NCBI GenBank assembly: GCA_949287925.1
Contig: CASEIR010000005.1
Span: 1-34,335, forward strand
Direction of reading: 5' to 3'
DNA from: an uncultured Lachnospiraceae bacterium
GTDB taxonomy: Bacteria; Bacillota; Clostridia; Lachnospirales; Lachnospiraceae
Length of the DNA stretch: 34,335 nucleotides
The translations under genes were made by a program, and so were the position numbers. Every line of letters begins with the position of its first letter. The first letter of the stretch is position 1. Of this stretch, positions 2,217 through 20,489 are shown in pieces. Below the pieces are notes generated by a model. It saw nothing but the letters and a program-made list of their open reading frames with translations, did no database searches and was not told the DNA's origin.

Positions 2217-2247
2217 AATTTCTCTCCTTTTTCATCTCTCTTTCTGT

Positions 2248-3174: not shown

Positions 3175-3223
3175 CGTTTGATTCCTCCTGATTTTTCTTG
3201 AATATATGTTACTATATGATTCC

Positions 3224-3925
3224 CTATTTACATTCTGCCTTTGCCATCTCGTCGGTAAATGATTTCGTAATCAGCTGTGGTCTGGTAATGATAGAACCTA
3301 CTACGACGCTGTAGCATCCTAACTCTACCACTCTTCTGGCTTTCTCCGGTGTGTTGATATTTCCCTCTGCGATTACTCTGTGTTTTGCCTGTGCCAGAAT
3401 CTTCCGGATAATCTCGAAATCATTGGTTTCAATCTTGTCGCCCTTGCTCTGCTCGGTATAGCCTACCAGCGTAGTCCCGATAAAGTCGAATCCCAGTTCA
3501 TCGGCGTGCAGCGCTTCTTCTACAGTAGAGCAGTCTGCCATCAGAAGCTGATCCGGATACTTTTCACGAATCTGTCCATAGAACTCATCCAGTGTGACTC
3601 CGCCCGGCCGAAGGGATATGGTTGCGTCAATGGCAATAATTTCCGGTTTTACTTCCATCAGCTCATCCACCTCTTGCATGGTGGGTGTAATGTAGACTTT
3701 GCTGTCATCGTAGTCCCGCTTCACAATTCCGATCACCGGAAGATCTACATTTTTCTTGATCTCAGTAATATCTTCTTTGGTGTTGGCACGGATTCCCAGC
3801 GCGCCTCCTTCTGCAGCGGCTCTCGCCATCCTTCCCATAATGAAGGAAGAGTGAAGCGGCTCGTGAGGAAGCGCCTGACAGGATACAATCAGATGTCCCT
3901 GCAGTTTTGCCAGTTTTTCATTCAT
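3224..3925 (-). CDS. nanE: N-acetylmannosamine-6-phosphate 2-epimerase
   Basis: A 233-residue TIM-barrel protein of the NanE family, the normal length. It reads [18 protein letters not shown] at the N terminus. GIVKRDY (Lys69) and VIAEGNI (Glu187) supply the lysine/glutamate pair expected in the active site, and PGGVTL and a phosphate-binding [10 protein letters not shown] lie near the C terminus. It converts N-acetylmannosamine-6-phosphate to N-acetylglucosamine-6-phosphate, which then enters amino-sugar catabolism. It is the first gene of the nan operon, about 60 bp downstream of the promoter at 3987-4014, with an AGGAG-type site about 10 nt before the ATG. The deacetylase and deaminase that would finish the route are not in the window. 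Confidence 0.94.
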
Positions 3926-3986
3926 CTCTCATCTCTCCTTTCCTTTTTACTCTCTATTTTGCTGTTCTTTACTTGCCTTTGACATC

Positions 3987-4014
3987 AGTATAACAAGTTT
4001 GAAAGTTATTTCAA
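3987..4014 (-). promoter_or_regulatory. Promoter of the nan operon with an overlapping inverted-repeat operator
   Basis: On the minus strand, a -35 TTGAAA (4009-4014) and a -10 TATACT (3987-3992) are separated by 16 nt. The -35 box is the left arm of a perfect inverted repeat TTGAAA-TAAC-TTTCAA (3999-4014). A repressor bound there would block RNA polymerase. Inverted TGAAA/TTTCA half-sites are of the kind bound by RpiR-family sugar-phosphate regulators, but no such gene is in the window, so the regulator is unknown. The rest of the gene-free stretch 3926-4282 holds AT-rich sequence and the hairpin at 4193-4230; I see no small gene in it. Confidence 0.6.
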
Positions 4015-4192
4015 TAGATTTTATTTTAATGAATGTTCTTTCATTTCATTCATCAAAACATCCAGTTTATTCCATTTATTTCCCCACTGGTATTGTGAAT
4101 AACACACAATTTCCCTTGCGTTCTTTTCTGATGGGTTCCCCCTGTATGTCTCCACCTCGCAGCGAAAGAAACGACTGGTTCTGCTGAACTTC

Positions 4193-4230
4193 AAAAGCAG
4201 GTGCAGTTCCTATGAGCTGCACCTGCTTTT
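4193..4230 (-). terminator. Rho-independent terminator after the GH2 gene (bidirectional sequence)
   Basis: A perfect 14-bp inverted repeat, AAAAGCAGGTGCAG at 4193-4206 and CTGCACCTGCTTTT at 4217-4230, surrounds a 10-nt loop. A-run and T-run flanks make it usable in both directions. It lies 53 bp downstream of the GH2 stop codon and upstream of the nan promoter, so it separates the two units. Confidence 0.85.
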
Positions 4231-4282
4231 GTTCAGGATGATCTATATAATATTAATGAATGTTCCCGGGCGGGTCTGCTGC

Positions 4283-6682: not shown

Positions 6683-6683
6683 T

Positions 6684-8069
6684 TTACTCCCCCTGCTTTT
6701 TTCCTGCTTCTCTCAGTCTCCTGTTTTCCTTTTCCACATTCAGGAAAACAAGTACGACCAGAGTTACCAGCGAAGGAATCGCAACCGCCAGAATATACCC
6801 ATAATTGATAACATTCACTGTAAAAGCAGACTGGGTTTCCACAGCGCCATTAAATTTTGCAAACTCAAGCAGGATACCTGTGGCAGCGGTTCCAAATCCG
6901 GTCCCCACTTTCAGTCCTACCGAGGAGCAGGAGTACATCATTCCTGTCACACGTTTTCCGAATTTCAGTACAGAATAGTCATCCGCAGCAGCGATCAGAG
7001 CATTTACTCCTCCCCGCATCGGCGCAGTTCCGGCTGACTTTCCTATAAGACCGATCACAATGGCCATAAAACAGTATTCTGTATTTCCTCCAATAAATGC
7101 CAGCGCACCACCTGCGATTCCAAATACTGCTCCCCAGATGGAAACCCTGCGGATTCCGAATTTTTCAGTGAGCTGAGGCACAAAAAGAAGAATCACCATT
7201 GCCGGGATCATTCCAACCATACTCAAAGTTCCCAGAAGTCCGGCGTTGTTCAGTTTATACGTTGTATAATAGATGCCAAGACCGCCTGTAACTCCGCTTG
7301 CAAGATACATCACAAGATACCAGATCAGAATCAGAAGGAAGTATTTATTTTTAAATAACAGTACAACTGATTCTACAAATCCGATTTTTTCTTCTTTCTC
7401 AGTACCGCTGCCGTTTTCCATCAGTTCATCTTCAGAAAGTTCTTTTACCGCCAAAACCGGAATAAAGAGGAAAACAAAACAGATTACTGAATAGATCAGT
7501 GATACGATTGTCCACCCGTGCTGTCCGCTGCCAAAATATTCTACCAGATCAGATGTAAATGTTCCGATCAGGATCACAGCCAGTCCCGCAAAGATAAAAC
7601 GATAGCTTCCCAGCTGAACACGTTCTTTCTGATTCTTTGTCACAAGAGCAGTCAGAGAAGAATATGCAATGTTGCTCATTGTGTAGAAAACAACTCCCAT
7701 AAGTGTATAAGCGATGAATATGTAAATATACTGTGTATTTTTTGTAAAGCCCGCCGGTACATTAAACAGCAAAAAAGTAAAAAAAGCTACCGGGAAAGCA
7801 CTGAGCGCATACCAGAATCTCGCCTTCCCCATTTTGCTTTTTGTCCGGTCGATGATTCGTCCCATGATCACATCTGATATTCCATCCAAAAATTTAGAAA
7901 GCATCATAATGACACCAATTACGCCTGAGCTGATTCCCAAAGTATTCGTACAGTAGATCATGATAAATGACGCCACAAAGGTCCAGCAATAATTCGAGCC
8001 AAGATCGCCGACTCCGTACCCCACCTTCTGGATAAGGGTTAAATATTTTTTCTCTGAAGTATGTTCCAT
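6684..8069 (-). CDS. GPH-family (glycoside-pentoside-hexuronide):cation symporter
   Basis: A 461-residue membrane protein with about 12 transmembrane segments. The N-terminal KVGYGVGDLGSNYCWTF and the loop DGISDVIMGRIIDRTKSKMGKARFW are the signature of the GPH/MelB-XylP branch of the major facilitator superfamily: the aspartates of the first helices bind the coupling cation, and the RxxxG/KxGKxR loop follows. The length is typical. It is the first gene of a two-gene unit with the GH2 enzyme and diverges from an AraC-type regulator 244 bp away, a standard arrangement for substrate-induced glycoside use. It probably imports an intact glycoside by sodium or proton symport. The substrate is unknown. 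Confidence 0.9.
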   Translation of the reverse strand: MEHTSEKKYLTLIQKVGYGVGDLGSNYCWTFVASFIMIYCTNTLGISSGVIGVIMMLSKFLDGISDVIMGRIIDRTKSKMGKARFWYALSAFPVAFFTFLLFNVPAGFTKNTQYIYIFIAYTLMGVVFYTMSNIAYSSLTALVTKNQKERVQLGSYRFIFAGLAVILIGTFTSDLVEYFGSGQHGWTIVSLIYSVICFVFLFIPVLAVKELSEDELMENGSGTEKEEKIGFVESVVLLFKNKYFLLILIWYLVMYLASGVTGGLGIYYTTYKLNNAGLLGTLSMVGMIPAMVILLFVPQLTEKFGIRRVSIWGAVFGIAGGALAFIGGNTEYCFMAIVIGLIGKSAGTAPMRGGVNALIAAADDYSVLKFGKRVTGMMYSCSSVGLKVGTGFGTAATGILLEFAKFNGAVETQSAFTVNVINYGYILAVAIPSLVTLVVLVFLNVEKENRRLREAGKKQGE

Positions 8070-8140
8070 TCCTGTTCTTCCGCCTTTCTTGTAAAGATTT
8101 TTTATGCTGTTCCCGGAAACATAAAATAAATGTTAAATCC

Positions 8141-8168
8141 ATATTACTTTCTTCCCCAAAATATCCAA
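8141..8168 (-). promoter_or_regulatory. Candidate promoter of the symporter-GH2 unit
   Basis: On the minus strand, TTGGAT (8163-8168) and TAATAT (8141-8146) are separated by 16 nt, about 70 bp before the symporter start. Both boxes are imperfect, which would suit an activator-dependent promoter controlled by the divergent AraC-type protein. This is pattern recognition only. Confidence 0.4.
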
Positions 8169-8231
8169 TAATAAAAACAGGACACAACAGCCGCTTTATA
8201 TCAAAAACGCGCCAAAATACAACAGAGTGCT

Positions 8232-8259
8232 TTGTGAAGTCCCCGCCTTATAGTATAAT
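8232..8259 (+). promoter_or_regulatory. Candidate promoter of the AraC-family gene
   Basis: TTGTGA (8232-8237), a 16-nt spacer and a consensus TATAAT (8254-8259) stand about 55 bp before the AraC-type start codon on the plus strand. The neighbouring symporter promoter points the other way within the same 244-bp intergenic region. Confidence 0.55.
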
Positions 8260-8313
8260 AAGTCCATTAAAAACGAAGATCCGCCCGGAGCGGCAGAAAG
8301 GAGTTCAGGTCAG

Positions 8314-9372
8314 ATGCACAATACTACCAACTATCAGAATATGTACCCGGGTCCTCAGAATGCATTCGATATCTATCATTCCGACAGTTCCATATCCGCT
8401 TTGTATGAGCTGAAATCCCCCTACCTGCTCATAAAAGAAGTTTTCGACTATGACAGAGATATCTTTCAGACATATGCAGCAGCCCCGCTTTATTTTTATC
8501 AGAATAATTATGTACTTTCAGAAACTATTGTTAATTTCTCCCGCCGGCATCAGCACAGTTTTTTTGAAATCATGTTTGTGATGAAAGGAAGTACGGAACA
8601 GCGGATCGAAAACCAGAAATACCTCTACCATGAAGGTCAGTGCTGCCTGCTGAACCATGCGGTCCGGCACCGTGAACTGCCTTTCCAGAATACTACTCTT
8701 TATTTCTTAATGCTTTCAGATGATTTTGTCTCGAAACTGATGGCAAATGATTTCTTCTTCAATGCGGACGGTGTGCTCAGTCAAAGGCAGAATACCATCT
8801 ACGATTTTTTTCAAAAATCACTGAACAGCCGGGACAAACAATATCTTGATTTCTATCCCAAGGTCCCTGCCGACAGGATAACTCCTGTACTGGAAGACTT
8901 TTTTGAAAAACTGACGGAAGAAAACCAGCATTTCTCCTGGGGAAGTTATGCGGCAGCACAAGGAATCACAGCTAAAATTCTAGGGGTAATGCTTGACTAC
9001 TCTCTTTATAAGTCCCGTAAAATATCGGTTAACAACAGTAAAGAGGAATATTTATTCATCCAAATCCAACGGCTTCTGGAATCCCACAGCGGCAAGATCA
9101 GCCGTCAGGAAATATCTGATATCCTTCATTACAGCGATAGTTATCTGAACAAAATTGTCAACCGTTCTGTAGGAATGAGCCTGCTTGAATACCGGAAATT
9201 TTTTATGATCAAAGAGGCTGCGCGGCTACTTTCCTGCACCGATAAGACTGTCTCTGAGATCATTGATGATCTGGGGTTTTCCGGACGCACCTACTTTAAC
9301 AGTTTTTTTAAAAAGCAGTACGGTGTTACACCTGCACAATATCGAAAAAACAGCCGGATTCAATCAGAATAA
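8314..9372 (+). CDS. AraC/XylS-family transcriptional regulator
   Basis: A 352-residue one-component regulator. The N-terminal part (about 60-170) looks like a cupin-type sugar-sensing domain, with the metal-site-like HQHSFFEIMFVMKGS followed by GQCCLLNHAVRHRE. The C-terminal 100 residues (about 255-348) hold the two helix-turn-helix motifs of the AraC family, ISRQEISDILHYSDSYLNK and VSEIIDDLGFSGRTYFNSF, ending in the conserved FKKQYGVTPAQYRK. AAAGGAG lies 10 nt before the ATG. It diverges from the GPH symporter and GH2 genes and most likely activates them when their substrate is present. The inducer is not deducible. Confidence 0.92.
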   Translation: MHNTTNYQNMYPGPQNAFDIYHSDSSISALYELKSPYLLIKEVFDYDRDIFQTYAAAPLYFYQNNYVLSETIVNFSRRHQHSFFEIMFVMKGSTEQRIENQKYLYHEGQCCLLNHAVRHRELPFQNTTLYFLMLSDDFVSKLMANDFFFNADGVLSQRQNTIYDFFQKSLNSRDKQYLDFYPKVPADRITPVLEDFFEKLTEENQHFSWGSYAAAQGITAKILGVMLDYSLYKSRKISVNNSKEEYLFIQIQRLLESHSGKISRQEISDILHYSDSYLNKIVNRSVGMSLLEYRKFFMIKEAARLLSCTDKTVSEIIDDLGFSGRTYFNSFFKKQYGVTPAQYRKNSRIQSE

Positions 9373-9410: not shown

Positions 9411-9461
9411 AAAAAAAGTGGGCTGCCGCATCAATGATTGAACTCACAGATGCGACAGCCC
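9411..9461 (-). terminator. Rho-independent terminator closing the gcv-fnt operon
   Basis: On the minus strand, GGGCTGTCGCATC and GATGCGGCAGCCC pair over 13 positions with one mismatch (arms at 9449-9461 and 9420-9432) and are followed by seven T. It lies 16 bp after the stop of the formate/nitrite-family gene. The convergent AraC-type gene ends at 9372, and the same hairpin read forward is followed by ATCTTTT, so it may also stop that transcript. Nothing else is seen in 9373-9477. Confidence 0.88.
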
Positions 9462-9477
9462 ATCTTTTCAGGACTCT

Positions 9478-10098
9478 CTATTTCCCGACTATTTCCAGTT
9501 TCTTCACCGCCGGGATCAACATTCCTCCCAGACTGTTCCCTACCGTCATAATGAGCAGATACCCCACCGCCTTCAGGCTCCACATTCCCGCAAGGAAAAA
9601 GTAGAACATGTTGGCGACGCAGTGCTCAAATCCGGATAATATAAATACGCTCACGCATATGAACAAAATCAGAGGATTTTTCGTCTGCCGGTATCCTTCC
9701 ACCGCGGCGTACATTAACAGTCCACAGAAAATGGAAAGGATCAGGATGCTTACCGGTCCGTCCCCAAGCTTCACCTGGCACAATTCTGCGGCCCGGTCAC
9801 TTAAACCGGCAATCCTGGTCGCCGACAACATCCCCGCGCCGACGGCAGTTCCACTAAGGTTCCCCAGCCAGGTCAGAAGAAGGGTAACTCCATAAGTCCC
9901 CTTATCCTCTTCAACCACAACATATCCAATCTTCCCTGTGTATAAATAAAATCCATTCAACACGATCAGATACAATCCGATGGCGAATAAAAGTGATCCC
10001 ACAACCTTATTCTCTGCCGACAGATAAACCGTACCGCCAATGGAAATTCCAATCCCCGACATCACAGCCAGCAGAAATATTCCACATCTCTCTTTCAT
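9478..10098 (-). CDS. Formate/nitrite transporter (FNT) family channel, short form
   Basis: A 206-residue membrane protein with six hydrophobic segments. FNT hallmarks are SGFEHCVANMF (residues 155-165, with the pore histidine His159) and GNSLGG (187-192). It is shorter than FocA (about 280 residues): the amphipathic N-terminal cytoplasmic helix and long C-terminal tail are missing, so the first membrane helix begins almost at residue 6. It is the last gene of an operon of glycine cleavage and one-carbon genes that includes formate-THF ligase, so formate is a far more likely substrate than nitrite or hydrosulfide. It probably exports (or imports) formate. The start has only a weak AGG-type site and follows a palindromic repeat at 10117-10131. 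Confidence 0.87.
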   Translation of the reverse strand: MKERCGIFLLAVMSGIGISIGGTVYLSAENKVVGSLLFAIGLYLIVLNGFYLYTGKIGYVVVEEDKGTYGVTLLLTWLGNLSGTAVGAGMLSATRIAGLSDRAAELCQVKLGDGPVSILILSIFCGLLMYAAVEGYRQTKNPLILFICVSVFILSGFEHCVANMFYFFLAGMWSLKAVGYLLIMTVGNSLGGMLIPAVKKLEIVGK

Positions 10099-10116
10099 AT
10101 GACATTACCTAAAATC

Positions 10117-10171
10117 GGGGGTCAGACCCCCTGCGTGTTTTCGCCTGTTTCAGCTAGGGGGTCTGACCCCC
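10117..10171. repeat. Pair of 15-bp palindromic (REP-like) repeats at the folD-fnt junction
   Basis: GGGGGTCAGACCCCC (10117-10131) and GGGGGTCTGACCCCC (10157-10171) are reverse complements of each other. Each is itself a palindrome around one central base, and 25 nt separate them. The right-hand copy lies inside the folD reading frame and encodes its last residues, GGQTP before the stop; the left-hand copy lies just before the fnt start. The pair could fold as two small hairpins or one large one in the folD-fnt mRNA. The form is like the REP elements mobilised by Y1 (RAYT) transposases, but no such transposase is in the window, so the origin is an inference. Confidence 0.8.
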
Positions 10172-11008
10172 TCTTGCCCCGCGCAGTACATGGGCGGCCA
10201 ATACGGATGTGGTTACGCTGCCCACGCCTCCCGGCACCGGGCTGATATAACCGCAGGTTTCCTGTACTGATTCGTAATCTACGTCTCCGCACATGTTTCC
10301 TTCTTCATCCACGTTGATTCCCACGTCTGCTACCACGGCGCCCTCACCCACCATGTCCGCGCTGATCATTTTTGCTTTGCCTGCTGCCGCCACCAGGATC
10401 TCGGCTTCCCGGCAGGTTGCCGCCAGGTCTTTGGTCCGGGTATGGCAGATGGTCACAGTTCCGTGCTTTTTCAGCAGCATCATGGCCAGCGGCTTGCCTA
10501 CCACCATGCTTCGTCCTACCACAGTGACTTTCTTGCCACTAATATCGATCTGATAATGCTCCAGCATCTTCATGACTGCTTCCGGTGTACAGGGCGCATA
10601 ACCGGTCTCATCTCCGGAAAATACTTTGGCGATATTAACCGGACTCATACAGTCCACATCCTTTTTGGGATGGATCATCTGACACACCGGTTCTTCGTTA
10701 AGATGCGAGGGAAGTGGGCGGAACAACAAGATACCGTGTACCTCCGGGTCTTCATTCACCTGCCGGAACTGCTGTTCAAATTCCTCCTGGGAAATGTCTT
10801 CCGGCAACTCCAGTACTTCGCACCGGATTCCCACCAGTTCCATCCGCTTCTTCGCGCCTCTTTCATAAGCCAGATCATCCGGTCTTGCACCTACGCGGAT
10901 TATGGTCAGACAAGGTTCAACGCCTGCCTGTTTCAGTTCCTCTGTTTCCCGGATCAAAACCTCTTTCATGGCCTTCGCCACTTCTGCGCCTTTCATAATC
11001 ATACTCAT
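10154..11008 (-). CDS. folD: Methylenetetrahydrofolate dehydrogenase (FolD), cyclohydrolase residues missing
   Basis: A 284-residue FolD-family protein. The substrate tyrosine (Tyr48 in DDLAYERGAKK), PLPSHL, KKDVDCMSPVN, the Rossmann segment VVGRSMVVGKP and the final PGGVGSVTT are all present. The lysine four residues after the tyrosine (Lys54 of the E. coli enzyme) is Ala52 here, and the glutamine of the GILxQLPLP motif is Phe96, so cyclohydrolase activity is not expected. It probably only oxidises methylene-THF to methenyl-THF (or the reverse), with FchA next door doing the hydrolysis. An earlier in-frame ATG at 11041 would overlap fchA; AGGAGG 8 nt before 11008 decides the start. The C terminus runs into a palindromic repeat. 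Confidence 0.93.
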   Translation of the reverse strand: MSMIMKGAEVAKAMKEVLIRETEELKQAGVEPCLTIIRVGARPDDLAYERGAKKRMELVGIRCEVLELPEDISQEEFEQQFRQVNEDPEVHGILLFRPLPSHLNEEPVCQMIHPKKDVDCMSPVNIAKVFSGDETGYAPCTPEAVMKMLEHYQIDISGKKVTVVGRSMVVGKPLAMMLLKKHGTVTICHTRTKDLAATCREAEILVAAAGKAKMISADMVGEGAVVADVGINVDEEGNMCGDVDYESVQETCGYISPVPGGVGSVTTSVLAAHVLRGARGGQTP

Positions 11009-11024
11009 GCCTGTCTCCTCCTGC

Positions 11025-11651
11025 CTATTTGATCTTCTCAAGCACCGCCCCGTATATGGCTTCTTTCTTCCGCCGGCCTCCGTCGATCAGAGTTTCCGCA
11101 CGGGCATTCAATTCCTCCGCACGCTCCCGGTTCTTCATCATTTTTGTATTGATAAAAATATTCAAAGATGCGCCTTCCAGCGCCGCCTGGGCAAACAAAA
11201 TTCCAACTCCTACATCACTGACCGCCAGCCGGCTGCCTTTCTTCTCCAGCACCTCCAGAATATCCGCCGCCTTAGCAATGGTCTCCATGATCTGCAGCGG
11301 CGCCAGACTGGCTTCATAGAGAGCCTGTTCCATCACCCGTTCCTTTTCGGCCCGCTGCTCTTCTGTATCTTTCGGAAGACCATACGCTCTGGAAAGAGGC
11401 TCAAATGCCTTGGCATCCTCATCTGTCAGCCGGACCAATTCATCCTGCAGCCGGGCCAGCTCACTTCTGGCCGCCAGGATCTCTTCCTCATATTCTGCGT
11501 ATTTCTTCTTTCCAATGGTCAAATTAGCTACCATCATCCCCAGAGCCGAGGCAAATGCTCCTACGGCTGCAGAAGCGCCGCCTCCCCCCGGCACGGGACT
11601 GGCGGAAGACAATTCCGCCAGAAACTCTGTTGTTCGTTTTTCTAACATCAT
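11025..11651 (-). CDS. fchA: Methenyltetrahydrofolate cyclohydrolase (FchA), cyclodeaminase family
   Basis: A 208-residue helical protein of the cyclodeaminase/cyclohydrolase family. It has the glycine-rich SASPVPGGGGASAAVGAFASALG at residues 16-38, LTDEDAKAFEPL around 80 and DVGVGILFAQAALEGASLNIFIN near 145-168. It interconverts methenyl-THF and 10-formyl-THF. It lies 12 bp after fhs and 16 bp before folD, and the neighbouring FolD lacks cyclohydrolase residues, so this is likely the operative cyclohydrolase rather than a formimino-THF cyclodeaminase. AGGAGG stands 8 nt before the first of two adjacent ATG codons. Confidence 0.92.
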   Translation of the reverse strand: MMLEKRTTEFLAELSSASPVPGGGGASAAVGAFASALGMMVANLTIGKKKYAEYEEEILAARSELARLQDELVRLTDEDAKAFEPLSRAYGLPKDTEEQRAEKERVMEQALYEASLAPLQIMETIAKAADILEVLEKKGSRLAVSDVGVGILFAQAALEGASLNIFINTKMMKNRERAEELNARAETLIDGGRRKKEAIYGAVLEKIK

Positions 11652-11663
11652 AAGCTTATCCTC

Positions 11664-13343
11664 CTAGAAGAGTCCGGAGATTACGCCGTCCGCATCCACA
11701 TCGATCTTCTCCGCCGCCGGCACTTTGGGCAAGCCCGGCATCTTCATAATATCTCCGGTCAGAGCCACCAGGAATCCGGCTCCTGCAGAAGCGGTAATGT
11801 CCCGGATGGTAATACGGAATCCAGTGGGACGTCCCAGCTTCTTGGCGTCATCTGTCAGAGAATATTGATTCTTGGCCATACAGATGGGCAGCTCTCCCAG
11901 GCCGATAGCTTCCAGATTACGGATCTCTTTTTCCGCCTTTGTCGTATAATCCACTCCATCGGCGCCGTATACTCTTCCGGCAATGGCATCGATCTTTTCT
12001 TTAATCGGCGCCTTTACATCGTATACGAACTCCATAGTACTCTCACCTTCGCAGAGGCGTACCACTTCCTGGGCCAGTTCCTCGCCTCCGGCGCCGCCGT
12101 TGGCCCACACGTCAGACAGAGCCACATTCACGCCCAGTTCCTTACATTTCTCCCGTACCAGCGCAAGTTCTGCTTCCGTATCCGTGGGGAACTTGTTAAT
12201 GGCAACCACAGCCGGAAGGCGGTAAACCTGTGTAATATTCTCGATATGCTTCAGAAGATTCGGGATTCCCTTTTCCAGCGCTTCCAGATTCTCTTCCTGT
12301 AAATCATTTTTTGCCACTCCGCCATTGTACTTCAATGCCTTGATGGTTGCAACCAGAATAACTGCATTGGGACGAATTCCCGCCATCCGGCATTTGATAT
12401 CTACGAATTTCTCCGCTCCCAGATCCGCGCCGAAGCCCGCCTCCGTGATCATATAATCCGCCAGTTTCATTCCCATCTTCGTAGCAATGACACTGTTGCA
12501 CCCGTGCGCGATGTTGGCAAATGGTCCTCCGTGGATAAATGCCGGGGTTCCCTCCAGGGTCTGTACCAGGTTCGGCTTCAGCGCATCTTTCAGAAGCGCC
12601 GCTACCGCTCCTTCTGCGTGAAGATCACCGGCGGTTACCGGCTGACCCGAACGGGAATAGGCTACGATAATCCTAGATACCCGTTCCTTCAGATCCAGAA
12701 TGTCGCTGGCCAGGCAGAATACAGCCATAATCTCTGACGCCACCGTAATGTCAAATCCATCCTGACGGGTCACTCCGTCTGCCTTAGCTCCCAGACCGTC
12801 CACGATACTGCGCAGCTGGCGGTCATTCATGTCCACGCACCGTCTCCAGGTCACCCGGTTGGTATCGATATCCAGCGCATTTCCCTGGTGAATGTGATTG
12901 TCCAGCATGGCCGCGATCAGGTTGTTAGCCGCACCGATAGCATGCAGATCCCCGGTAAAATGCAGGTTAATGTCCTCCATGGGCACCACCTGGGCGTAAC
13001 CGCCTCCGGCCGCTCCTCCCTTAACGCCAAATACCGGACCCAGAGAAGGCTCCCGCAGCGCTACCATCGTCTTCTTGCCGATCCGGTTCAGCGCGTCTGC
13101 CACTCCGATGGTCGTGGTCGTCTTTCCTTCTCCTGCCGGTGTGGGATTAATGGCTGTCACCAGCACCAGCTTTGCGTCTTTGCGGTCTTTTAGTTCCTCG
13201 TTATAATAACGGTAATCTATCTTGGCTTTGTATTTTCCATAATTCTCCACATACTGATCTGGAATTCCGATCCGTTCAGCCACCTCGTTGATTACCTGCA
13301 TCTTCGCTTCCTGTGCAATCTCAATATCACTTTTAAATCCCAT
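11664..13343 (-). CDS. fhs: Formate-tetrahydrofolate ligase
   Basis: A 559-residue protein, the full family length. The nucleotide loop [14 protein letters not shown] is at 68-81, followed by [37 protein letters not shown], and the C-terminal region carries GFRITIRD and [15 protein letters not shown]. It couples formate, THF and ATP with 10-formyl-THF. In the direction glycine to formate it would make ATP by substrate-level phosphorylation; in the other direction it activates formate. It sits between lpd and fchA, 32 bp after lpd, with an AAAGGAAG site upstream. Confidence 0.97.
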
Positions 13344-13375
13344 ATCTGATCTTCCTTTCCCAAAAAAATCGGATG

Positions 13376-14782
13376 TTACAGTTTCTTCTTCGGCATAATA
13401 TGGATGGCGCCTCCTGCCAGCTCCTCCAGCGCCTCTCCCAATCCTTCGTTACAGGTAGGATGGGGACGCATGGCTTTCTGCATCTCATGCACCGTCAGTC
13501 CGGCCGCAATGGCAGTTCCCATCTCACCGATCATATCGGTGGCTCTTGCACACATCATCTGGCATCCCAGAATCACACCAGTTTCTTTATGCGCCACTAC
13601 TTTGATAAATCCCCGTTCCTCGCGCTCGATCAGCGATTTTCCATTGGCCGTCATGATAAATTTACCTGCGGATACCGGAATTCCTTCTTCCTTGGCCTGG
13701 TCCTCCGTATATCCCACCGACGCCAGCTCCGGTTCTGTGTATACACAGGCCGGCACCACATGAAGGTCGATGGATGGTTCCTGTCCGGCCAGCATCTCCG
13801 CCACCACGATTCCCTGGGCGCTGGCAAGATGTGCCAGCTGAAGTCCTTTGATCAGATCTCCGATGGCATAGACGCCTTCCAGGCTGGTACGAAACTGTTC
13901 GTCCACCACTATACGTCCACGGTCCATCTCCGGCTGGGCGCCTTCCGCAAACAGTCCTTCCGTATTGGGACGGCGTCCCACGGCACAGAGTACATACTCT
14001 GCTTCTGCCGTCTGTTCTTTTTCCTTCTCGATGTAACGGCAGGCATAGCCGTTTTCCGTCTTCTCCACACCCTGTACTGCCGCGGAGGTATGAATACCCA
14101 TCCCTTTCTTCTTCAGCAGCATCTTCAAGTTCTGGGACACGTCTTTGGCAAGACCGGGCACCAGCCGCGGCATAGCCTCCAAAATCGTAATCTGACAGTC
14201 CAGATCTGCAAATGCGGTGGCCAGTTCCACACTGATGACGCCGCCGCCGATAATCACCATGCTCTTCGGCGCTTCTTTCAGCGCAAACAGCTCGTCGCTG
14301 GTCAGGACGCCCGGAAGGTCCATGCCCGGAATGGGCAGGATGACCGGTTTGGAACCCGTGGCCAGAATAATCTTATCCGCTTCATATACACAGGTTCCTT
14401 CTTCGCCTGTCACTTCCACTTTCTTTCCCGGAAGCAAACGGCCTCTTCCGGTGATCCGGGTGACGCCATTTGCCTTCAGGAGCTGCTCCACACCGCCCAC
14501 CAGCTGGTCGGTAGTATCTTCTTTATATTTCAGAATCTTTTCATAATCATAGCTGACGCCCTCGGTCAGAACGCCAAATGTCTCCGCGTTCTTCGCCTGC
14601 TGATAAACAGCCGCCGCATGGATCATAGCCTTGGCCGGGATACAGCCCCGGTTCAGGCAGGTGCCTCCCACCCGGTCCGCCTCTACCAGCGCCGTCTGAA
14701 TTCCCAGCTTGGCCGCCTTGATAGCCGCCACATAGCCGCCCGGGCCTCCGCCGATTATGATCAGTTCAAAATGCTGTTCCAT
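13376..14782 (-). CDS. lpd: Dihydrolipoyl dehydrogenase (glycine cleavage L-protein)
   Basis: A 468-residue flavoprotein of the pyridine nucleotide-disulfide oxidoreductase family. The FAD loop GGGPGGY is at 11-17, the redox-active disulfide [13 protein letters not shown] uses Cys42 and Cys47, the NAD(H) loop [13 protein letters not shown] is in the middle, and the catalytic His-Glu pair is in [12 protein letters not shown] near the C terminus. It reoxidises dihydrolipoyl-GcvH with NAD+. There is no N-terminal lipoyl domain. It is the sixth gene of the operon, 36 bp after the lipoate ligase, with GAGGAGG 7 nt before the ATG, so it is most likely dedicated to the glycine cleavage complex. Confidence 0.95.
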
Positions 14783-14818
14783 GCATCATCCTCCTCTTCC
14801 ATCTTGAATGCTGCCTTC

Positions 14819-15814
14819 CTACATTTCCCACTCCCGGATCCAGGCGGCCGTTTCCCGGAGCAGCACGGCTCTTTCCCCATATGCCGTGCAGGAACAAAGC
14901 GCCCGGCTCAGTTCCGATCTCCGGAACGGACAGCCCTTCAGACATACCATCATCTCTGCCGCAAACCCTGCATCCAGCGCGTCACAATACACCTGAACGT
15001 CTGTGACCATTCCCCCGTCCACCATGAGCTGCAGCTGTACCTCTCCCCAGGAAAAGCGGTGGGAGAATTCCTGAGTAAATTCCAGTTTTCTCCCATACAG
15101 CCAATCCCAGGATGCATATTTCTCCCTTGTTTTTTCCAGCTCCTCTTTGCAGAGATCTTCCACCTTGAGGTCCTTCGCCGGAAGTCCGTACACCTGTTCA
15201 AACGCCGACCGCAGCGTTTCTTTCAGACGATCGATCGTCAACTCTGGAAGAAATTCCGTCAGATTCGCCACCCGGGACCGCACCGAAGCCACGCCTTTGG
15301 ACTTAAGCTTTTCTTTGGAAACGGTCAGGTATTTCCCCAGATCCTTCAGGTTCACCGACACCATCAGCGTACCGTGGTGATAACATCGGTCTCCCTGCCG
15401 GTAATAAGCATTTCCCGACACCTTTCTTCCATCCACAAGGACATCGTTCCTTCCCGACTTCTCCGCCCGGATCCCCAGTTTCTTCAGGGCGGTGACAATG
15501 ACTTCCATCTGCCGGTCCAGATCATAATTGTCCTGACGAACGATAAATGTAAAATTCAGATTCCCCAGATCATGGTAAACGGCTCCGCCTCCGGACAATC
15601 GTCTGGCCAGCCTTCCGCCGTCCTGTTCCAGCGCTTCCACCCTGCATTCCCTCCAGGCATTCTGGTTGCGCCCTACCACGATGGTATCCTGATTCTGCCA
15701 CAGATATAAGATACACTCATCAGCCTCACAGTGGAGGAGTAAGTACTCCTCCACTGCCAGATTCACATACGGATCAAATTGTCTGCTTTCTATATAAGTA
15801 ATACGATCTGTCAT
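14819..15814 (-). CDS. lplA: Lipoate-protein ligase
   Basis: A 331-residue enzyme of the LplA family. RRLSGGGAVYHDLGNLNFTF at 71-90 is the lipoate-binding loop, and Lys131 in GRKVSGNAYY is the lysine expected to contact lipoyl-AMP. A C-terminal accessory domain (about 245-331) is present, as in two-domain LplA proteins. It attaches scavenged lipoate to a lysine of GcvH (Lys63 there). The longer reading frame begins at 15829, but GGAGG lies 6 nt before the ATG at 15814, which I chose. Its place inside the operon means the glycine cleavage complex carries its own lipoylation enzyme. A transferase role from another lipoyl protein cannot be excluded. Confidence 0.92.
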   Translation of the reverse strand: MTDRITYIESRQFDPYVNLAVEEYLLLHCEADECILYLWQNQDTIVVGRNQNAWRECRVEALEQDGGRLARRLSGGGAVYHDLGNLNFTFIVRQDNYDLDRQMEVIVTALKKLGIRAEKSGRNDVLVDGRKVSGNAYYRQGDRCYHHGTLMVSVNLKDLGKYLTVSKEKLKSKGVASVRSRVANLTEFLPELTIDRLKETLRSAFEQVYGLPAKDLKVEDLCKEELEKTREKYASWDWLYGRKLEFTQEFSHRFSWGEVQLQLMVDGGMVTDVQVYCDALDAGFAAEMMVCLKGCPFRRSELSRALCSCTAYGERAVLLRETAAWIREWEM

Positions 15815-15843
15815 GCTCATCCTCCACATCTGTCATTGAGTTC

Positions 15844-17274
15844 CTAAGACTCAAATACATACCGCAGTACCGGATGTCTGGCGGCTCCCACTTCGTCCAG
15901 ACGGGTCACCGGTGTGGTCACCGGCGCCTGGTGCAGGCTCTCGGCATCCGTCTGGGCGCGCTCATACAGCTCGCGGAATACTGCCACCGCTTCATCCAGC
16001 GTTTCTTTGGATTCCGTCTCCGTTGGCTCTACCATCAACGCCTCTCCCACGACCAATGGGAAATACATGGTCGGCGGATGGATGCCGTTGTCCAGCAGGC
16101 CTTTGGCAATATCCATGGCGGATACGCCGGTAGCCTTCTTCAGATCTGACAGGCTCATGACGAATTCATGCATGCAGACTTCGTCATAGGCCATGGTATA
16201 CAGGTCTTTTAACTTGTTCATCATATAGTTGGCATTGAGTACCGCATTCTGGCTGGCCTCCGGGATTCCTTCCCGTCCCAGCGTCAGAATATAGGTAAGC
16301 GCTCTGACCACCACCAGGAAATTGCCGTAGAATTCTTTGATCTCTCCGATGCTGTGTTCCGGTTTCACGAAGGTCTTCTTCTCTTCTCCTTCCACCAGAC
16401 AGGAGGGCAGAAATTCTGACAGGCAGCTCTTGCAGCCCACCGGTCCGCTTCCCGGACCTCCGCCGCCGTGAGGCGTGGAAAATGTCTTGTGCAGATTCAG
16501 GTGGATTACGTCGAATCCCATATCTCCCGGCCGCACCGTTCCCATAACCGCATTCAGGTTGGCGCCGTCATAATAGCACAGACCGCCGCATTCATGAACG
16601 ATACTGGTGATCTCCAGAATATTTTTATCAAATAATCCCACCGTGTTAGGGTTGGTCAGCATCAGCCCGGCTACATCATCTCCGGCTGCCGCCCGCAACT
16701 TCTCCAGGTCCACACACCCGTCTGCTCCGGACGGGATGCTGACTACCGAATAGCCCGCCATAGCGGCGCTGGCCGGATTAGTTCCGTGGGCGGAGTCGGG
16801 TACCAGGATCTTGGTCCGCTTCGTATCGCCCCGATGGGTATGATAAGCCTTGATCAGCAGCAGCCCGACAAACTCTCCATGCGCACCGGCCGCCGGCTGG
16901 AAGGTCATATGGTCCATACCAGTAATCTCGCAGAGCAGCTTCTCCGCCGTCTGCAGAACCTCCAGACATCCCTGCACCGTATGCTCCGGCTGCAGCGGAT
17001 GAATCTGAGTGAATCCAGGCAGAGCTGCCATATCTTCATCCACCTTGGGATTATACTTCATGGTACAGGAACCCAGCGGATAGAATCCGTCGTTGACTCC
17101 GTGAGATTTCTTCGCCAATTCGGTGTAATGCCGGCTCAGTTCCCCTTCCGTCATCTCCGGAAGGTGCAGACTGGTCTGTCTTAAATCCTTGTCTTCCGGC
17201 AGGGTTACCGGAACTTCACATTCCGGGATCAGCAATGCTCCCCGTCCCGGCCGGCTCTTCTCAAATATCAGCAT
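15844..17274 (-). CDS. gcvPB: Glycine dehydrogenase (decarboxylating) subunit 2, GcvPB
   Basis: A 476-residue PLP enzyme, the C-terminal half of P-protein in organisms with a split subunit. Pyridoxal phosphate should be bound by Lys263 in HLNLHKTFSTPHGGGGPGSG. Other family marks are GFYPLGSCTMKYNPK, PAAGAHGEF and DSAHGTNPASA. With GcvPA it decarboxylates glycine and passes the aminomethyl group to the lipoyl arm of GcvH. It starts 3 nt after the gcvPA stop with AAGGAGGTG ahead of the ATG, consistent with tight coupling of the two subunits. Confidence 0.97.
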   Translation of the reverse strand: MLIFEKSRPGRGALLIPECEVPVTLPEDKDLRQTSLHLPEMTEGELSRHYTELAKKSHGVNDGFYPLGSCTMKYNPKVDEDMAALPGFTQIHPLQPEHTVQGCLEVLQTAEKLLCEITGMDHMTFQPAAGAHGEFVGLLLIKAYHTHRGDTKRTKILVPDSAHGTNPASAAMAGYSVVSIPSGADGCVDLEKLRAAAGDDVAGLMLTNPNTVGLFDKNILEITSIVHECGGLCYYDGANLNAVMGTVRPGDMGFDVIHLNLHKTFSTPHGGGGPGSGPVGCKSCLSEFLPSCLVEGEEKKTFVKPEHSIGEIKEFYGNFLVVVRALTYILTLGREGIPEASQNAVLNANYMMNKLKDLYTMAYDEVCMHEFVMSLSDLKKATGVSAMDIAKGLLDNGIHPPTMYFPLVVGEALMVEPTETESKETLDEAVAVFRELYERAQTDAESLHQAPVTTPVTRLDEVGAARHPVLRYVFES

Positions 17275-17277
17275 ACG

Positions 17278-18588
17278 TTACACCTCCTTCAGAATGGCGA
17301 TGACCCGATCCATCTCCGCCTTTGTATTCATCTCCGTACAGCACCACAGGATCCGGTGATCATCCAGCGGATATCCGCCCAGGATGTCCTGGGCTTCCAG
17401 CGCGGACAGTACCTGTTCGGATGTGACGTCAGATTCAGTTACAAATTCATGAAAATACGGTCCTGGATTCGTCACTTTGAATCCGATTTTCTCCAGCTCG
17501 CCCGCCAGATAATGGGCATTGGAGGTGCACAGCGTTCCAGCCTGCTTCAGCCCCTCATTTCCCATAGCCGCCAGGTAAACACCTACTGCCAGGGCGCACA
17601 GCGCCTGATTGGAACAGATATTGCTGGAAGCCTTCTCCCGGCGGATGTGCTGTTCTCTGGCCTGCAGGGTCAGCACGTACCCGGTCTTGCCGTTATGATC
17701 TACCGTCTGCCCTACGATCCTTCCAGGCAGCTTTCTGGTCATATCTGCCACACAGGCCATAAATCCCAGATAAGGGCCGCCGAAAGCAAGGGATAATCCC
17801 AGAGGCTGTCCGTCTCCCACAGCCACATCTGCGCCGTATTCTCTCGGTGTCTTCAGTACTCCAAGAGAGAGAGGCGCAACACCCATGATGTATTTTGCCC
17901 CTGCTTCATGGACGATTGTTCCGATCTCCCCGGCAGGCTCAAGGCTCCCGTAATAATTAGGATGCTGGATATATACGCACGCCGTTCCGGCATCTACATG
18001 CGCTTTCAGATATTCCAGATCTGTCAGACCGTCTTTTTCTGGAATGATATCCAGTTCCATCTCATTTCCAAAACAATAAGTCTTTATCACTTCTAATACA
18101 GACGGATGAATGGTGGCTGATACCAGCGCTTTCTTCCGCTTCCGGTCCTGGCACATGGCGATGCCTTCCGCCGCCGCCGTAGCTCCGTCATAAACCGACG
18201 CGTTGGAACAGTCCATGCCGGTCAGATCACAGATCATGGTCTGGTACTCGAAAATGGACTGAAGGATTCCCTGACTGATCTCCGCCTGGTACGGGGTGTA
18301 TGCCGTCAGGAAATTCTCCTTGGAGATTACACTTTTTACAATAGACGGAATGTAGTGCCTGTATGCGCCTGCGCCACGGAAAATGGTAGGGAATATCTTG
18401 TTCTTCCCGGCAATTTCCTGCAGCTTTCTAGTCACTTCCAACTCGGACGCTCCTTCGGGGATATTCAGGCCGTCCTTAATCTTCACTTCAGCGGGGATAT
18501 GCCCAAACAGGTCATCCATGGAGGAAAAACCAATCTCTTCCAGCATTTTCTTCTGTTCTTCTCTGGTGTTAGGAACATAACTTCCCAT
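17278..18588 (-). CDS. gcvPA: Glycine dehydrogenase (decarboxylating) subunit 1, GcvPA
   Basis: A 436-residue protein, the N-terminal half of P-protein in split form and of normal length. It opens with YVPNTREEQKKMLEEIGF and includes FRGAGAYRHYIPS, TAYTPYQAEISQGILQ, SNASVYDGATAAAE and QAREQHIRREKASSNICSNQAL, all typical of the subunit. It pairs with GcvPB encoded immediately downstream. The ribosome site is weak (AAGGCGGTG), so translation may be lower than for its neighbours. It lies 32 bp after gcvH. Confidence 0.97.
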   Translation of the reverse strand: MGSYVPNTREEQKKMLEEIGFSSMDDLFGHIPAEVKIKDGLNIPEGASELEVTRKLQEIAGKNKIFPTIFRGAGAYRHYIPSIVKSVISKENFLTAYTPYQAEISQGILQSIFEYQTMICDLTGMDCSNASVYDGATAAAEGIAMCQDRKRKKALVSATIHPSVLEVIKTYCFGNEMELDIIPEKDGLTDLEYLKAHVDAGTACVYIQHPNYYGSLEPAGEIGTIVHEAGAKYIMGVAPLSLGVLKTPREYGADVAVGDGQPLGLSLAFGGPYLGFMACVADMTRKLPGRIVGQTVDHNGKTGYVLTLQAREQHIRREKASSNICSNQALCALAVGVYLAAMGNEGLKQAGTLCTSNAHYLAGELEKIGFKVTNPGPYFHEFVTESDVTSEQVLSALEAQDILGGYPLDDHRILWCCTEMNTKAEMDRVIAILKEV

Positions 18589-18620
18589 CTTACTTCACCG
18601 CCTTTCTGTTCTTGTCTGTA

Positions 18621-18998
18621 TTACTGTTCACTCTCTACAAATGCCTCATACTCCTGTGCAGTCAGAAGCTCTTCCTGATCGGTGATATCCTTTACTTTTA
18701 TAAACCAGGCGTCATAAGGAGCTTCGTTGATGGACTCCGGTGCATCCAGCAGCTCTTCATTGATCTCGCATACTACGCCGGACACCGGAGAATATACGTC
18801 GGATACTGCCTTTACAGATTCCACATCCGCAAACGGCTCGCCTACAGTCACTTCGTCGTCTATCTCCGGCAGATTGACGAATACCAGATCTCCCAGTTCA
18901 GACTGCGCATAGTCTGTAAGACCGATCACTGCCACACCGTCTTCTTCCTTTACCCACTCGTGTGATTTTGAATACTTTAATTCTTCTCTTAATTCCAT
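18621..18998 (-). CDS. gcvH: Glycine cleavage system H protein
   Basis: A 125-residue lipoyl carrier, full length for GcvH. The lipoylated lysine is Lys63 in [13 protein letters not shown]. The N-terminal YSKSHEWVK and the [23 protein letters not shown] strands are typical. It shuttles the aminomethyl group and electrons between the P, T and L proteins. AGGAG stands 8 nt before the ATG. It follows gcvT by 38 bp. Confidence 0.97.
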
Positions 18999-19036
18999 GA
19001 TTTACTCTCCTTTTCTAATTCTTAAATTTTCACTTC

Positions 19037-20125
19037 TTACTTTTCTCTCTTATAAAATGGAAGCGGCACGATCTCAGCCTCTACCATCCGGCCTCTGACT
19101 TCTACCGATACCTTAGTTCCCGGCTCTGTGTAAGCTGCGTCCACCAATGCCATCGCCACCGGATAGCCCAGATATGGGCAGTGGGTTCCGGATGTAGTGC
19201 GGCCAACCTGCTTTTCTCCCACGAATACAGGCTGTTCCTCCCGGATAATTCCCCGTCCCGTTACTTTCAGTCCGATCCGCTTGCGCTTGGGCTCTCCTGC
19301 CGCTTCCAGAGCAGCCTTGCCGATGAAGTCTTCTTTCTTCATCTTCACTGCAAATCCCAGTCCGGTCTCCAGAGGCGCCACCTCGTCGTTCATCTCATGT
19401 CCGTAGAGAGGCATGGCTGCTTCCATTCGCAGGGTGTCTCTGGCGCCAAGCCCGCAGGGGATCAGTCCCTCCTCTTTGCCGGCTTCCAGCAGCGCGTCCC
19501 ACATATTCTCCGCGTCCTTGCTGTCCAGATAAAGCTCCACCCCATCCTCACCGGTATATCCGGTCTTGGAAATGATGCAGGGGATTCCTGCCGCCTGGGT
19601 ATCAAATACAGCGTGATAGTATTTCTTCGGGATATTCTCCTCGTCCGTCACCTTCTTCAGGATTTCCATAGCCTTCGGTCCCTGAAGCGCCAGCTGGGCA
19701 TACTGTTCCGATACATCGGTAAAAGTAACCTCGCCAAACTGATGGTCCAGCATCCACTGATAATCTTTATCCTTATTGGCCGCATTGACTACAATGAAAT
19801 AATGCTCCTCACAGCGCTTATACACGATCAGGTCATCCACCGTGCCTCCTTGTTCATTACACATAGGGCTGTATCTTGCCTGGCCGTCCACCATATTTGC
19901 GAACTGGTTCGTCAGGATCTGTTCCAGATTCGCCAGCGCATCCTTTCCTTCACAAAGAATCTCTCCCATGTGGGAAACATCAAACAACCCAGCCTGGGTA
20001 CGCACTGCCGTATGTTCCTTGATCACACCTGTCTGATACTGCACCGGCAGAAGATAGCCTCCGAAAGGAACAATCTTTCCACCAGCTTTCACATGAGCCT
20101 CATAAAGCGGGGTCTTTAATTCCAT
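19037..20125 (-). CDS. gcvT: Aminomethyltransferase (glycine cleavage T-protein)
   Basis: A 362-residue THF-dependent aminomethyltransferase of normal length. Marks are LFDVSHMGEI, the folate-site segment TVDDLIVYK, ISKTGYTGEDGVELY, GARDTLRMEAAMPLYGHE and TSGTHCPYLG near the C terminus. It releases ammonia from the lipoyl-bound aminomethyl group and gives methylene-THF. The frame extends upstream to 20146, but AGGAGG lies 9 nt before the ATG at 20125 and family members begin with the LKTPLY segment, so I chose 20125. It is the first gene of the operon, directly controlled by the glycine riboswitch. Confidence 0.97.
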   Translation of the reverse strand: MELKTPLYEAHVKAGGKIVPFGGYLLPVQYQTGVIKEHTAVRTQAGLFDVSHMGEILCEGKDALANLEQILTNQFANMVDGQARYSPMCNEQGGTVDDLIVYKRCEEHYFIVVNAANKDKDYQWMLDHQFGEVTFTDVSEQYAQLALQGPKAMEILKKVTDEENIPKKYYHAVFDTQAAGIPCIISKTGYTGEDGVELYLDSKDAENMWDALLEAGKEEGLIPCGLGARDTLRMEAAMPLYGHEMNDEVAPLETGLGFAVKMKKEDFIGKAALEAAGEPKRKRIGLKVTGRGIIREEQPVFVGEKQVGRTTSGTHCPYLGYPVAMALVDAAYTEPGTKVSVEVRGRMVEAEIVPLPFYKREK

Positions 20126-20192
20126 CCTTTTCTTCCTCCTTTTCAAATGCCTGCACGATTTTTCTAAGACCGGATAAAGATTACCTCCCCAA

Positions 20193-20243
20193 TGCCAGAG
20201 GGCACATCCCGGGATGTGTGAGCAGATGTCAGTGCCTCTGGCA
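20193..20243 (-). repeat. Long imperfect hairpin with an inner palindrome in the gcvT leader
   Basis: TGCCAGAGG (20193-20201) pairs with CCTCTGGCA (20235-20243), extendable to 12 bp with one bulge. Inside it lies the perfect 16-bp palindrome CACATCCCGGGATGTG (20203-20218). It sits between the riboswitch terminator and gcvT. No T-run follows on the minus strand, so it does not look like a second terminator. Confidence 0.6.
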
Positions 20244-20271
20244 AACCCGGACTTTGGATCGTTGCTATTAC

Positions 20272-20308
20272 AAAAAAACAGGGAAATACGTTTACTGTAT
20301 TTCCCTGT
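20272..20308 (-). terminator. Intrinsic terminator of the glycine riboswitch (leader terminator)
   Basis: On the minus strand, CAGGGAAATAC and GTATTTCCCTG form a perfect 11-bp stem (20297-20307 and 20279-20289) with a 7-nt loop, followed by seven T. It begins directly after the aptamer region and about 150 bp before gcvT, so it is the expression platform. By analogy with known gcvT riboswitches, glycine binding should prevent terminator formation and turn the operon on. Confidence 0.9.
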
Positions 20309-20309
20309 C

Positions 20310-20430
20310 CATCTCCAGAGCTACGTCCAAATCCGATCCCTTTGCCTGAGAGTTTCCGGTCATCACCTTGCCCCTTCGGCGTTACCATAGCCTCGCTAAG
20401 ATAATCTCTCACGGATTCTTCAACCGCGTT
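20310..20430 (-). ncRNA. Glycine riboswitch (single aptamer, gcvT type)
   Basis: The minus-strand leader carries the glycine aptamer core: GAGAG near the 5' side, ACGCCGAAGGGGCAAG, and AACTCTCAGGCAAAGGGATCGG. A closing stem AATCCG (20412-20417) with CGGATT (20330-20335) encloses one aptamer. The second aptamer of tandem switches is absent; a short remnant (TTGGACGTAGCTCTGGAGA) follows, like the ghost helix of type-1 singlets. A leader terminator follows directly. Bases 20126-20190 between this unit and gcvT hold only the ribosome site region and the start of a further hairpin at 20193-20243. Confidence 0.92.
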
Positions 20431-20460
20431 CTTTTCCAAATCCACCTTGAATCTGGTTAA

Positions 20461-20489
20461 ATTATAACTTTGGTCAAATAGTCTGTCAA
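20461..20489 (-). promoter_or_regulatory. Consensus promoter of the gcv-fhs-fnt operon
   Basis: On the minus strand, TTGACA (20484-20489) and TATAAT (20461-20466) match the sigma-A consensus perfectly with a 17-nt spacer. The expected transcript starts around 20454, about 37 nt before the aptamer's closing stem. A strong constitutive promoter fits an operon controlled mainly by transcription termination. Confidence 0.88.

Follow-up and report, generated by a model that had tools for sequence, protein, structure and literature searches.

A predicted glycine-responsive operon joining glycine cleavage to formate formation in an uncultured Lachnospiraceae bacterium

Introduction

What would a bacterium do with a glycine cleavage system (GCS), the enzymes that connect its one-carbon product with formate, and a formate channel, all placed behind one glycine riboswitch, and in which direction would such a route run? 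The question is raised by 34,335 nucleotides of DNA from an uncultured Lachnospiraceae bacterium (positions 1 to 34,335 of the forward strand of contig CASEIR010000005.1, GenBank assembly GCA_949287925.1; hereafter the window). Scans for open reading frames and elements located on the minus strand, from 20489 down to 9411, a promoter, a glycine riboswitch, ten genes and a terminal hairpin. An earlier interpretation of the letters (hereafter the sequence-only reading) had taken these to be a self-contained module for fermenting glycine to formate, or for the reverse route, with a preference for the catabolic direction. Analysis of the operon, its relatives and the rest of the genome, a 2.2 Mb draft of 105 contigs with 83.6% completeness and 6.4% contamination, makes it likely that glycine induces the operon and that its products carry out the oxidative branch of a Stickland-type dismutation of glycine, with formate as an end product.

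Results

The ten genes follow one another in the order gcvT-gcvH-gcvPA-gcvPB-lplA-lpd-fhs-fchA-folD-fnt as intact open reading frames of the same strand with no internal stops. For gcvT and folD, the ATG starts at 20125 and 11008 were judged better than the TTG starts at 20146 and 11041, respectively, each ATG having a plausible ribosome-binding site upstream. With these ATG starts all nine gaps, from gcvT to fnt, measure 3–55 bp (38, 32, 3, 14, 36, 32, 12, 16 and 55 bp); the earlier statement that all but one were below 60 bp was thus right as to short gaps and needs no exception. Upstream, a sigma-70 type promoter (TTGACA-17-TATAAT, 20461–20489, minus strand as for all operon features below unless stated) matches the consensus at 12 of 12 positions and is the sole such site in a 14-kb region that contained 23 promoter-like sites, versus 13.0 in shuffled sequences. 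Downstream, an intrinsic terminator (9411–9462) consists of a hairpin and seven U, the 76-nt fold having a free energy of −38.4 kcal/mol (z −7.4). Promoter scan, Rfam, profile matches and folding z-scores therefore confirmed the succession of promoter, glycine riboswitch, ten same-strand genes and strong terminator recognized by the sequence-only reading, and the ten genes are predicted to form a single transcript.

Profile searches identified a complete GCS, its T, H, P (PA plus PB) and L proteins all exceeding their NCBIfam cut-offs: the aminomethyltransferase gene gcvT (19037–20125; TIGR00528, 400 bits, cut-off 236, for the longer reading frame from the TTG), gcvH (18621–18998; TIGR00527, 141.5 bits, cut-off 116), gcvPA (17278–18588; NF001696, 580 bits, cut-off 364), gcvPB (15844–17274; NF003346, 728 bits, cut-off 441) and the dihydrolipoyl dehydrogenase gene lpd (13376–14782; TIGR01350, 526 bits, cut-off 409). 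A lipoate-protein ligase gene, lplA (14819–15829; TIGR00545, 379 bits, cut-off 280), lies between gcvPB and lpd. Formate-tetrahydrofolate (THF) ligase is encoded by fhs (11664–13343; NF010030, 927 bits, cut-off 652), and the genome has a second copy, on contig C6, which could have a biosynthetic role. The methenyl-THF cyclohydrolase gene fchA (11025–11651) matched the Pfam family FTCD_C with 213 bits (cut-off 24.5) and NCBIfam NF045657 with 171.5 bits, under the cut-off of 275, family membership being still clear. For folD (10154–11008) the best FolD models reached about 285 bits, and all models listed stayed under their own cut-offs. Methylene-THF dehydrogenase, cyclohydrolase and Fhs were thus all found by profile, FchA and FolD below equivalog cut-offs, and together with the GCS they make up the full enzyme set from glycine to formate, CO2, NH3 and ATP that had been proposed earlier.

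The leader contains a single glycine aptamer of the singleton type 1 (20324–20423; RF00504, 59 bits, gathering score 32, E 6.4e-10). An expression platform (20276–20323) follows, comprising a CTCTGGAG motif 3′ of the aptamer, which we take to be ghost-aptamer-like, and a terminator hairpin (20310–20276) that starts 13 nt past the aptamer (46-nt fold, −20.1 kcal/mol, z −5.7). A motif comparison, as distinct from a search with a ghost-aptamer model, found, in the window and six relatives alike, a CTCTGGAG-like motif that follows the beginning of the CTCTCAGGCA core by 31–33 nt. The leaders of these relatives (L001, L002, L003, L121, L124 and L125) have a promoter matching at 11 or 12 of 12 positions before the aptamer, the CTCTCAGGCA core, the CTCTGGAG-like motif and a terminator. 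In the minimum free energy fold of the window leader the terminator was retained and no clear antiterminator was visible. Passages of PMC6944388 and PMC11477304 describe a singleton with a 3′ ghost motif ahead of gcvT as a context that usually activates glycine catabolism. The leader is accordingly described here as a predicted glycine-ON switch, in which binding of glycine would block leader termination.

Two glycine riboswitches were detected in the draft genome, one at the gcv operon and the other, on contig C66, before a glycine reductase operon of the order grdX-grdE-grdB-trxB-trxA-grdA-grdC-grdD, which is adjoined by a gene for a Na+:alanine/glycine symporter. Within the grdB reading frame lies a TGA codon, downstream of which a SECIS_4 element was found. 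With the TGA read as selenocysteine, GrdB scored 731.6 with the glycine model, above its cut-off of 602, and stayed under the thresholds of the sarcosine model (718 versus 800) and of the betaine model (555 versus 775). GrdA scored 277 (cut-off 130), GrdC and GrdD exceeded their cut-offs, and GrdE reached 708 bits with its Pfam model. Components A, B and C of glycine reductase, as expected for Stickland dismutation of glycine, are hence present in the same draft genome, and GrdB was found in all three genomes of the genus. Genes for D-proline reductase (prdA, prdB and prdD) and trans-4-hydroxyproline dehydratase were also observed, on G000:C7 (L138) and G000:C81 (L194); they fit an amino-acid fermenter, and D-proline reductase is probably a further electron sink.

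The association of the two systems extends to the family. Among 299 Lachnospiraceae genomes, GrdB was found in 31 and gcvPB in 40 (self-set thresholds of 1e-60 and 1e-100, respectively, with 1e-40 in another search), and 11 had both where 4.1 were expected (Fisher p 7.6e-4, a value that overstates independence because the genomes are related). GrdB occurred in 10 of the 11 genomes whose gcvPB was at least 78% identical, the window included, and in one of the remaining 29 with gcvPB. In an Rfam scan that covered 9 of 16 grd loci, RF00504 lay upstream of grd in eight, and it was also found in L127. A separate observation concerns locus L180, where a glycine-GGAnGA variant riboswitch (RF03166, 159 bits, 6952–7127) lies on the same strand downstream of a grdE/grdB pair 54–58% identical to that of the window genome, and no RF00504 match was obtained in the locus.

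Conservation of the operon was surveyed through fchA, the nearest relatives of which are from Lachnospiraceae (Faecalicatena, Dorea, Coprococcus and Hespellia). The survey comprised the best 80 of 157 relatives and 14 further loci, at least two of which repeat contigs of the first set; some contigs are short and could hide gcv. The genes gcvT-H-PA-PB were found upstream on the same strand in 4 of the best 80 loci (L001, L002, L003 and L006) and in 4 of the 14 further ones (L121, L123, L124 and L125), giving nine linked operons with the window. The block fhs-fchA-folD is joined to gcv in eight of the nine, and a glycine aptamer at or above the gathering score was found in seven. The full ten-gene order is present in four: the window, L003, L123 and L125. 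A search of other genomes for this order with a glycine riboswitch in front, as the sequence-only reading had suggested, thus recovered the order three times, in L123 without the aptamer. In L002 a serine hydroxymethyltransferase gene (7278–8525) occupies the position of fhs in a gcv-fchA-folD operon.

The window FolD was aligned to Campylobacter FolD (3p2o), which placed an alanine at the lysine of the YxxxK motif and a phenylalanine at the glutamine of VQLPLP. It therefore lacks both residues used here as the active-site test for a bifunctional FolD, which four FolDs from the PDB that were compared retain. The same positions were read in FchA-linked FolDs, to which the survey was limited: of 94 loci (L001–L080 and L119–L132), 8 with no FolD match were dropped, and 86 plus the window were counted, rows that are not independent since L008/L128 and L009/L131 are, judged by length, duplicate contigs and some are strains of one species. 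With the window included each time, none of 87 sequences had the lysine, none of 86 readable ones had the glutamine, and the aspartate was retained in 85 of 85. The residue-deficient proteins include those of Clostridioides difficile and Acetobacterium, and some acetogens possess monofunctional dehydrogenases. Because the YxxxK lysine has been given roles in both FolD activities (passages of PMC3368264) and one study questions its catalytic role in the dehydrogenase (passages of PMC9173628), we infer rather than conclude that the window FolD is probably a dehydrogenase only. A FolD without the cyclohydrolase lysine and glutamine would explain the presence of FchA in the operon. The FolD of C. 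difficile has been labelled bifunctional (passages of PMC3633928); the pattern suggests that FolDs encoded beside FchA, that of C. difficile among them, may be dehydrogenase-only. A role in the methyl branch of the Wood-Ljungdahl pathway was considered, the fhs-fchA-folD order resembling Acetobacterium loci, and was rejected: acetyl-CoA synthase (CdhC/AcsB) gave no match in the three genus genomes, in a search in which 2 of 14 controls matched, both archaea, with no acetogen among the positives.

The last gene, fnt (9478–10098), encodes a 206-aa channel of the formate/nitrite transporter family, which passed Pfam PF01226 (93 bits, cut-off 34.6) and stayed under the FocA equivalog cut-off (61 versus 290 bits). 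Despite its length, it retains the channel lysine (CQVKLGD) and the central histidine (GFEHCVANMF), both of which matter for FNT function. Among solved structures, LCIA and channels of the formate/nitrite family are the closest in sequence. The gene is the only PF01226 match in the window genome, and each of the three genus genomes has one FNT copy, which adjoins folD. Between folD and fnt, an inverted repeat (10117–10171, no strand assigned) surrounds the folD stop codon, which is flanked by two near-palindromic copies of GGGGTCWGACCCC with a possible 16-bp stem (76-nt fold, −40.1 kcal/mol, z −5.2). The repeat is an insertion relative to relatives, being missing from the folD-fnt gaps of five of them and present as one copy in L132, and it looks like a small inserted repeat.

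Elsewhere in the window, positions 705–9372 encode a sodium/solute symporter, a neuraminate-lyase-like protein, an N-acetylmannosamine-6-phosphate epimerase, a beta-galactosidase-like protein, a GPH symporter and an AraC-type regulator, a probable cluster for the use of sialic acid and galactosides. A BspA-type leucine-rich repeat protein of 1033 aa was recognized by profile match at 23866–26967.

Discussion

In the proposed mechanism, glycine would bind to the leader, prevent termination and so allow transcription of the operon. LplA would load scavenged lipoate onto GcvH, and the GCS (the products of gcvT, gcvH, gcvPA and gcvPB with Lpd) would convert glycine into CO2, NH3, NADH and methylene-THF, which a dehydrogenase-only FolD would oxidize to methenyl-THF with production of NAD(P)H. 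FchA would hydrolyze methenyl-THF to formyl-THF, from which Fhs, working in reverse, would yield formate and ATP, and the FNT channel would export the formate. In chemical terms, glycine, two NAD(P)+, ADP and Pi give formate, CO2, NH3, two NAD(P)H and ATP. An outside sink is required for the two reducing equivalents that each glycine releases, and for this reason the operon is not self-contained: it encodes no electron sink, the grd genes lie elsewhere, and that part of the sequence-only reading was rejected. Glycine reductase would use up one NAD(P)H for every glycine it reduces, two glycines leading to acetyl phosphate and ATP. The predicted arithmetic sum is 3 glycine → 2 acetate + formate + CO2 + 3 NH3, with about 3 ATP from substrate-level phosphorylation.

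We infer the direction of flux, and formate as the exported product, from the gene content and its context. The catabolic direction preferred at the outset is favored by the riboswitch context (passages of PMC6944388), the glycine reductase partner and the lack of a detected formate dehydrogenase. Several observations weigh against dismutation to formate, or loosen the argument for it. The search for formate dehydrogenase (TIGR01591) gave no match in the window genome or in G001 and one sub-cut-off match in G002, which is weak evidence given a draft with 83.6% completeness and 6.4% contamination. All reactions of the route are reversible, which makes reductive flux possible. Two PflB genes exceed the family cut-off in the window genome (four of its five pyruvate formate-lyase-like matches were classified, the short fifth being unclassified), so that formate is probably made from pyruvate too and FNT is not assignable to glycine alone. 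The repeat between folD and fnt may be an attenuator that lowers co-expression of fnt. Contigs C5 (gcv) and C66 (grd) would come from one organism, as judged from composition (tetranucleotide r 0.93–0.95) and the presence of grd in both congeners; a stretch of G002 reached r 0.93–0.94 with C5, so composition does not separate congeners, and the GC contents of C5 and C66 are 48.5% and 45.0%.

Further points of this kind come from the relatives. No glycine aptamer was found even at E 0.5 in two of the nine linked gcv operons, L123 and L006. In L120 (G002:C10:379000-398900), from the same genus, fhs-fchA-folD-fnt occurs without gcv, beside a tRNA gene and a lysA-like gene, and the sole gcvPB homologue of G002, located elsewhere, shows 38% identity. 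In G001 the block lies at a contig edge (L119) and gcvPB gave no match. None of the 18 other gcvPB neighborhoods viewed in the family had fhs, fchA or folD beside gcv (the remaining gcvPB genomes of the 40 being four viewed around fchA, namely G007, G037, G087 and G126, those of L001 (taken as G150 from its 75% fchA identity), L002 (which has the coordinates of G233) and the window (G000), and 15 outside these views), and joining gcv to the fhs block is consequently not a family rule. Since this linkage is not universal and operons led by glyA exist, those of L157, L159 and L160 beginning with riboswitch-glyA, the outlet for methylene-THF, through Fhs to formate or through GlyA to serine, varies.

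Three other explanations were weighed. The same enzymes, being reversible, could work reductively, with formate from PflB or from import through FNT combined with CO2 and NH3 into glycine by Fhs, FchA, FolD and the GCS, and glycine reductase turning this glycine into acetate as an electron sink. The two PflB genes and the grd genes agree with this, and reversal of the GCS in Clostridium drakei is cited (passages of PMC12674515). Such a route would nevertheless be a glycine-making one behind a glycine-activated switch, that is, under positive feedback by its product, and neither a formate dehydrogenase for producing formate from CO2, in a draft of the stated completeness, nor CdhC/AcsB was detected; we consider it rather unlikely. 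Supply of one-carbon units for purines and serine, or detoxification of glycine, with formate as a minor overflow, is in our view unlikely. Glycine-ON gcv operons do detoxify glycine in Bacillus subtilis and Streptomyces griseus (passages of PMC11477304), and gcv operons of relatives carry glyA in place of fhs (L002) or have the arrangement riboswitch-glyA-gcv (L157, L159 and L160), but the window operon is linked to an FNT gene, the genome has a second fhs, and gcv is associated with glycine reductase.

It is also conceivable that fhs-fchA-folD-fnt is transcribed mainly from an own or internal promoter and escapes glycine control. In L120 the block does stand apart from gcv, in L119 it lies at the edge of a contig, and promoter-like sites matching at 9–10 of 12 positions occur inside the operon. 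The gap between lpd and fhs is just 32 bp, however, and the gaps from gcvT to folD contain no terminator-like site on the minus strand, which leaves this explanation quite improbable.

Glycine-induced dismutation with formate as an end product thus remains the favored account, and a broader proposal can be advanced tentatively, at somewhat less than even confidence: in Lachnospiraceae without formate dehydrogenase, dismutation would terminate at formate, two operons would be co-induced by two glycine riboswitches, and the channel would feed formate-using neighbors. If true, gut-type Lachnospiraceae may turn glycine into formate with a gain of ATP. Formate-producing glycine fermenters would then be predictable from a gene signature made up of gcv-lplA-lpd-fhs-fchA-folD and grd, each preceded by a glycine riboswitch.

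Parts of this scheme are familiar from other bacteria. In passages of PMC12674515, Peptoclostridium (Eubacterium) acidaminophilum is described as combining the GCS and glycine reductase and as taking methylene-THF through formyl-THF to formate, with gcvT-H-PA-PB together with fhs in one gene region. The same passages state that it oxidizes formate to CO2 and that homologues of lpd and lplA were not found in that region; by contrast, the window has lplA, lpd, fchA, folD and fnt inside the operon, and no formate dehydrogenase was detected. Closer in taxonomy, the Lachnospiraceae bacterium Anaeropeptidivorans aminofermentans has been proposed from its genome to use Gcv, glycine reductase and Fhs, with ATP from 10-formyl-THF, and formic acid was a measured product; the portions of that account considered (PMC9682168) do not mention a comparable operon, a riboswitch or a formate channel. 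As in the window genome, gcv and grd have separate glycine riboswitches in C. difficile, which has another on an AGCS symporter (passages of PMC11477304). Unlike the window, the fhs-fchA-folD genes of C. difficile occur with an lpd homologue and with no gcvT or gcvP match in four loci. In Clostridium acidurici the glycine riboswitch ahead of gcv has two aptamers, and one-carbon units are converted to formate (passages of PMC3519856). The same core enzymes run in reverse in the glycine synthase-reductase route of C. drakei (passages of PMC12674515) and in the reductive glycine pathway of Desulfovibrio desulfuricans (PMC7547702), from which the window differs in that no formate dehydrogenase was detected and in its leader context of the glycine-ON type. 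In the open-licence literature searched, a ten-gene operon behind one glycine riboswitch, with lplA, lpd, fchA, folD and fnt included, had no precedent. The metabolism is already known; the make-up of the operon appears to be a new variation on it.

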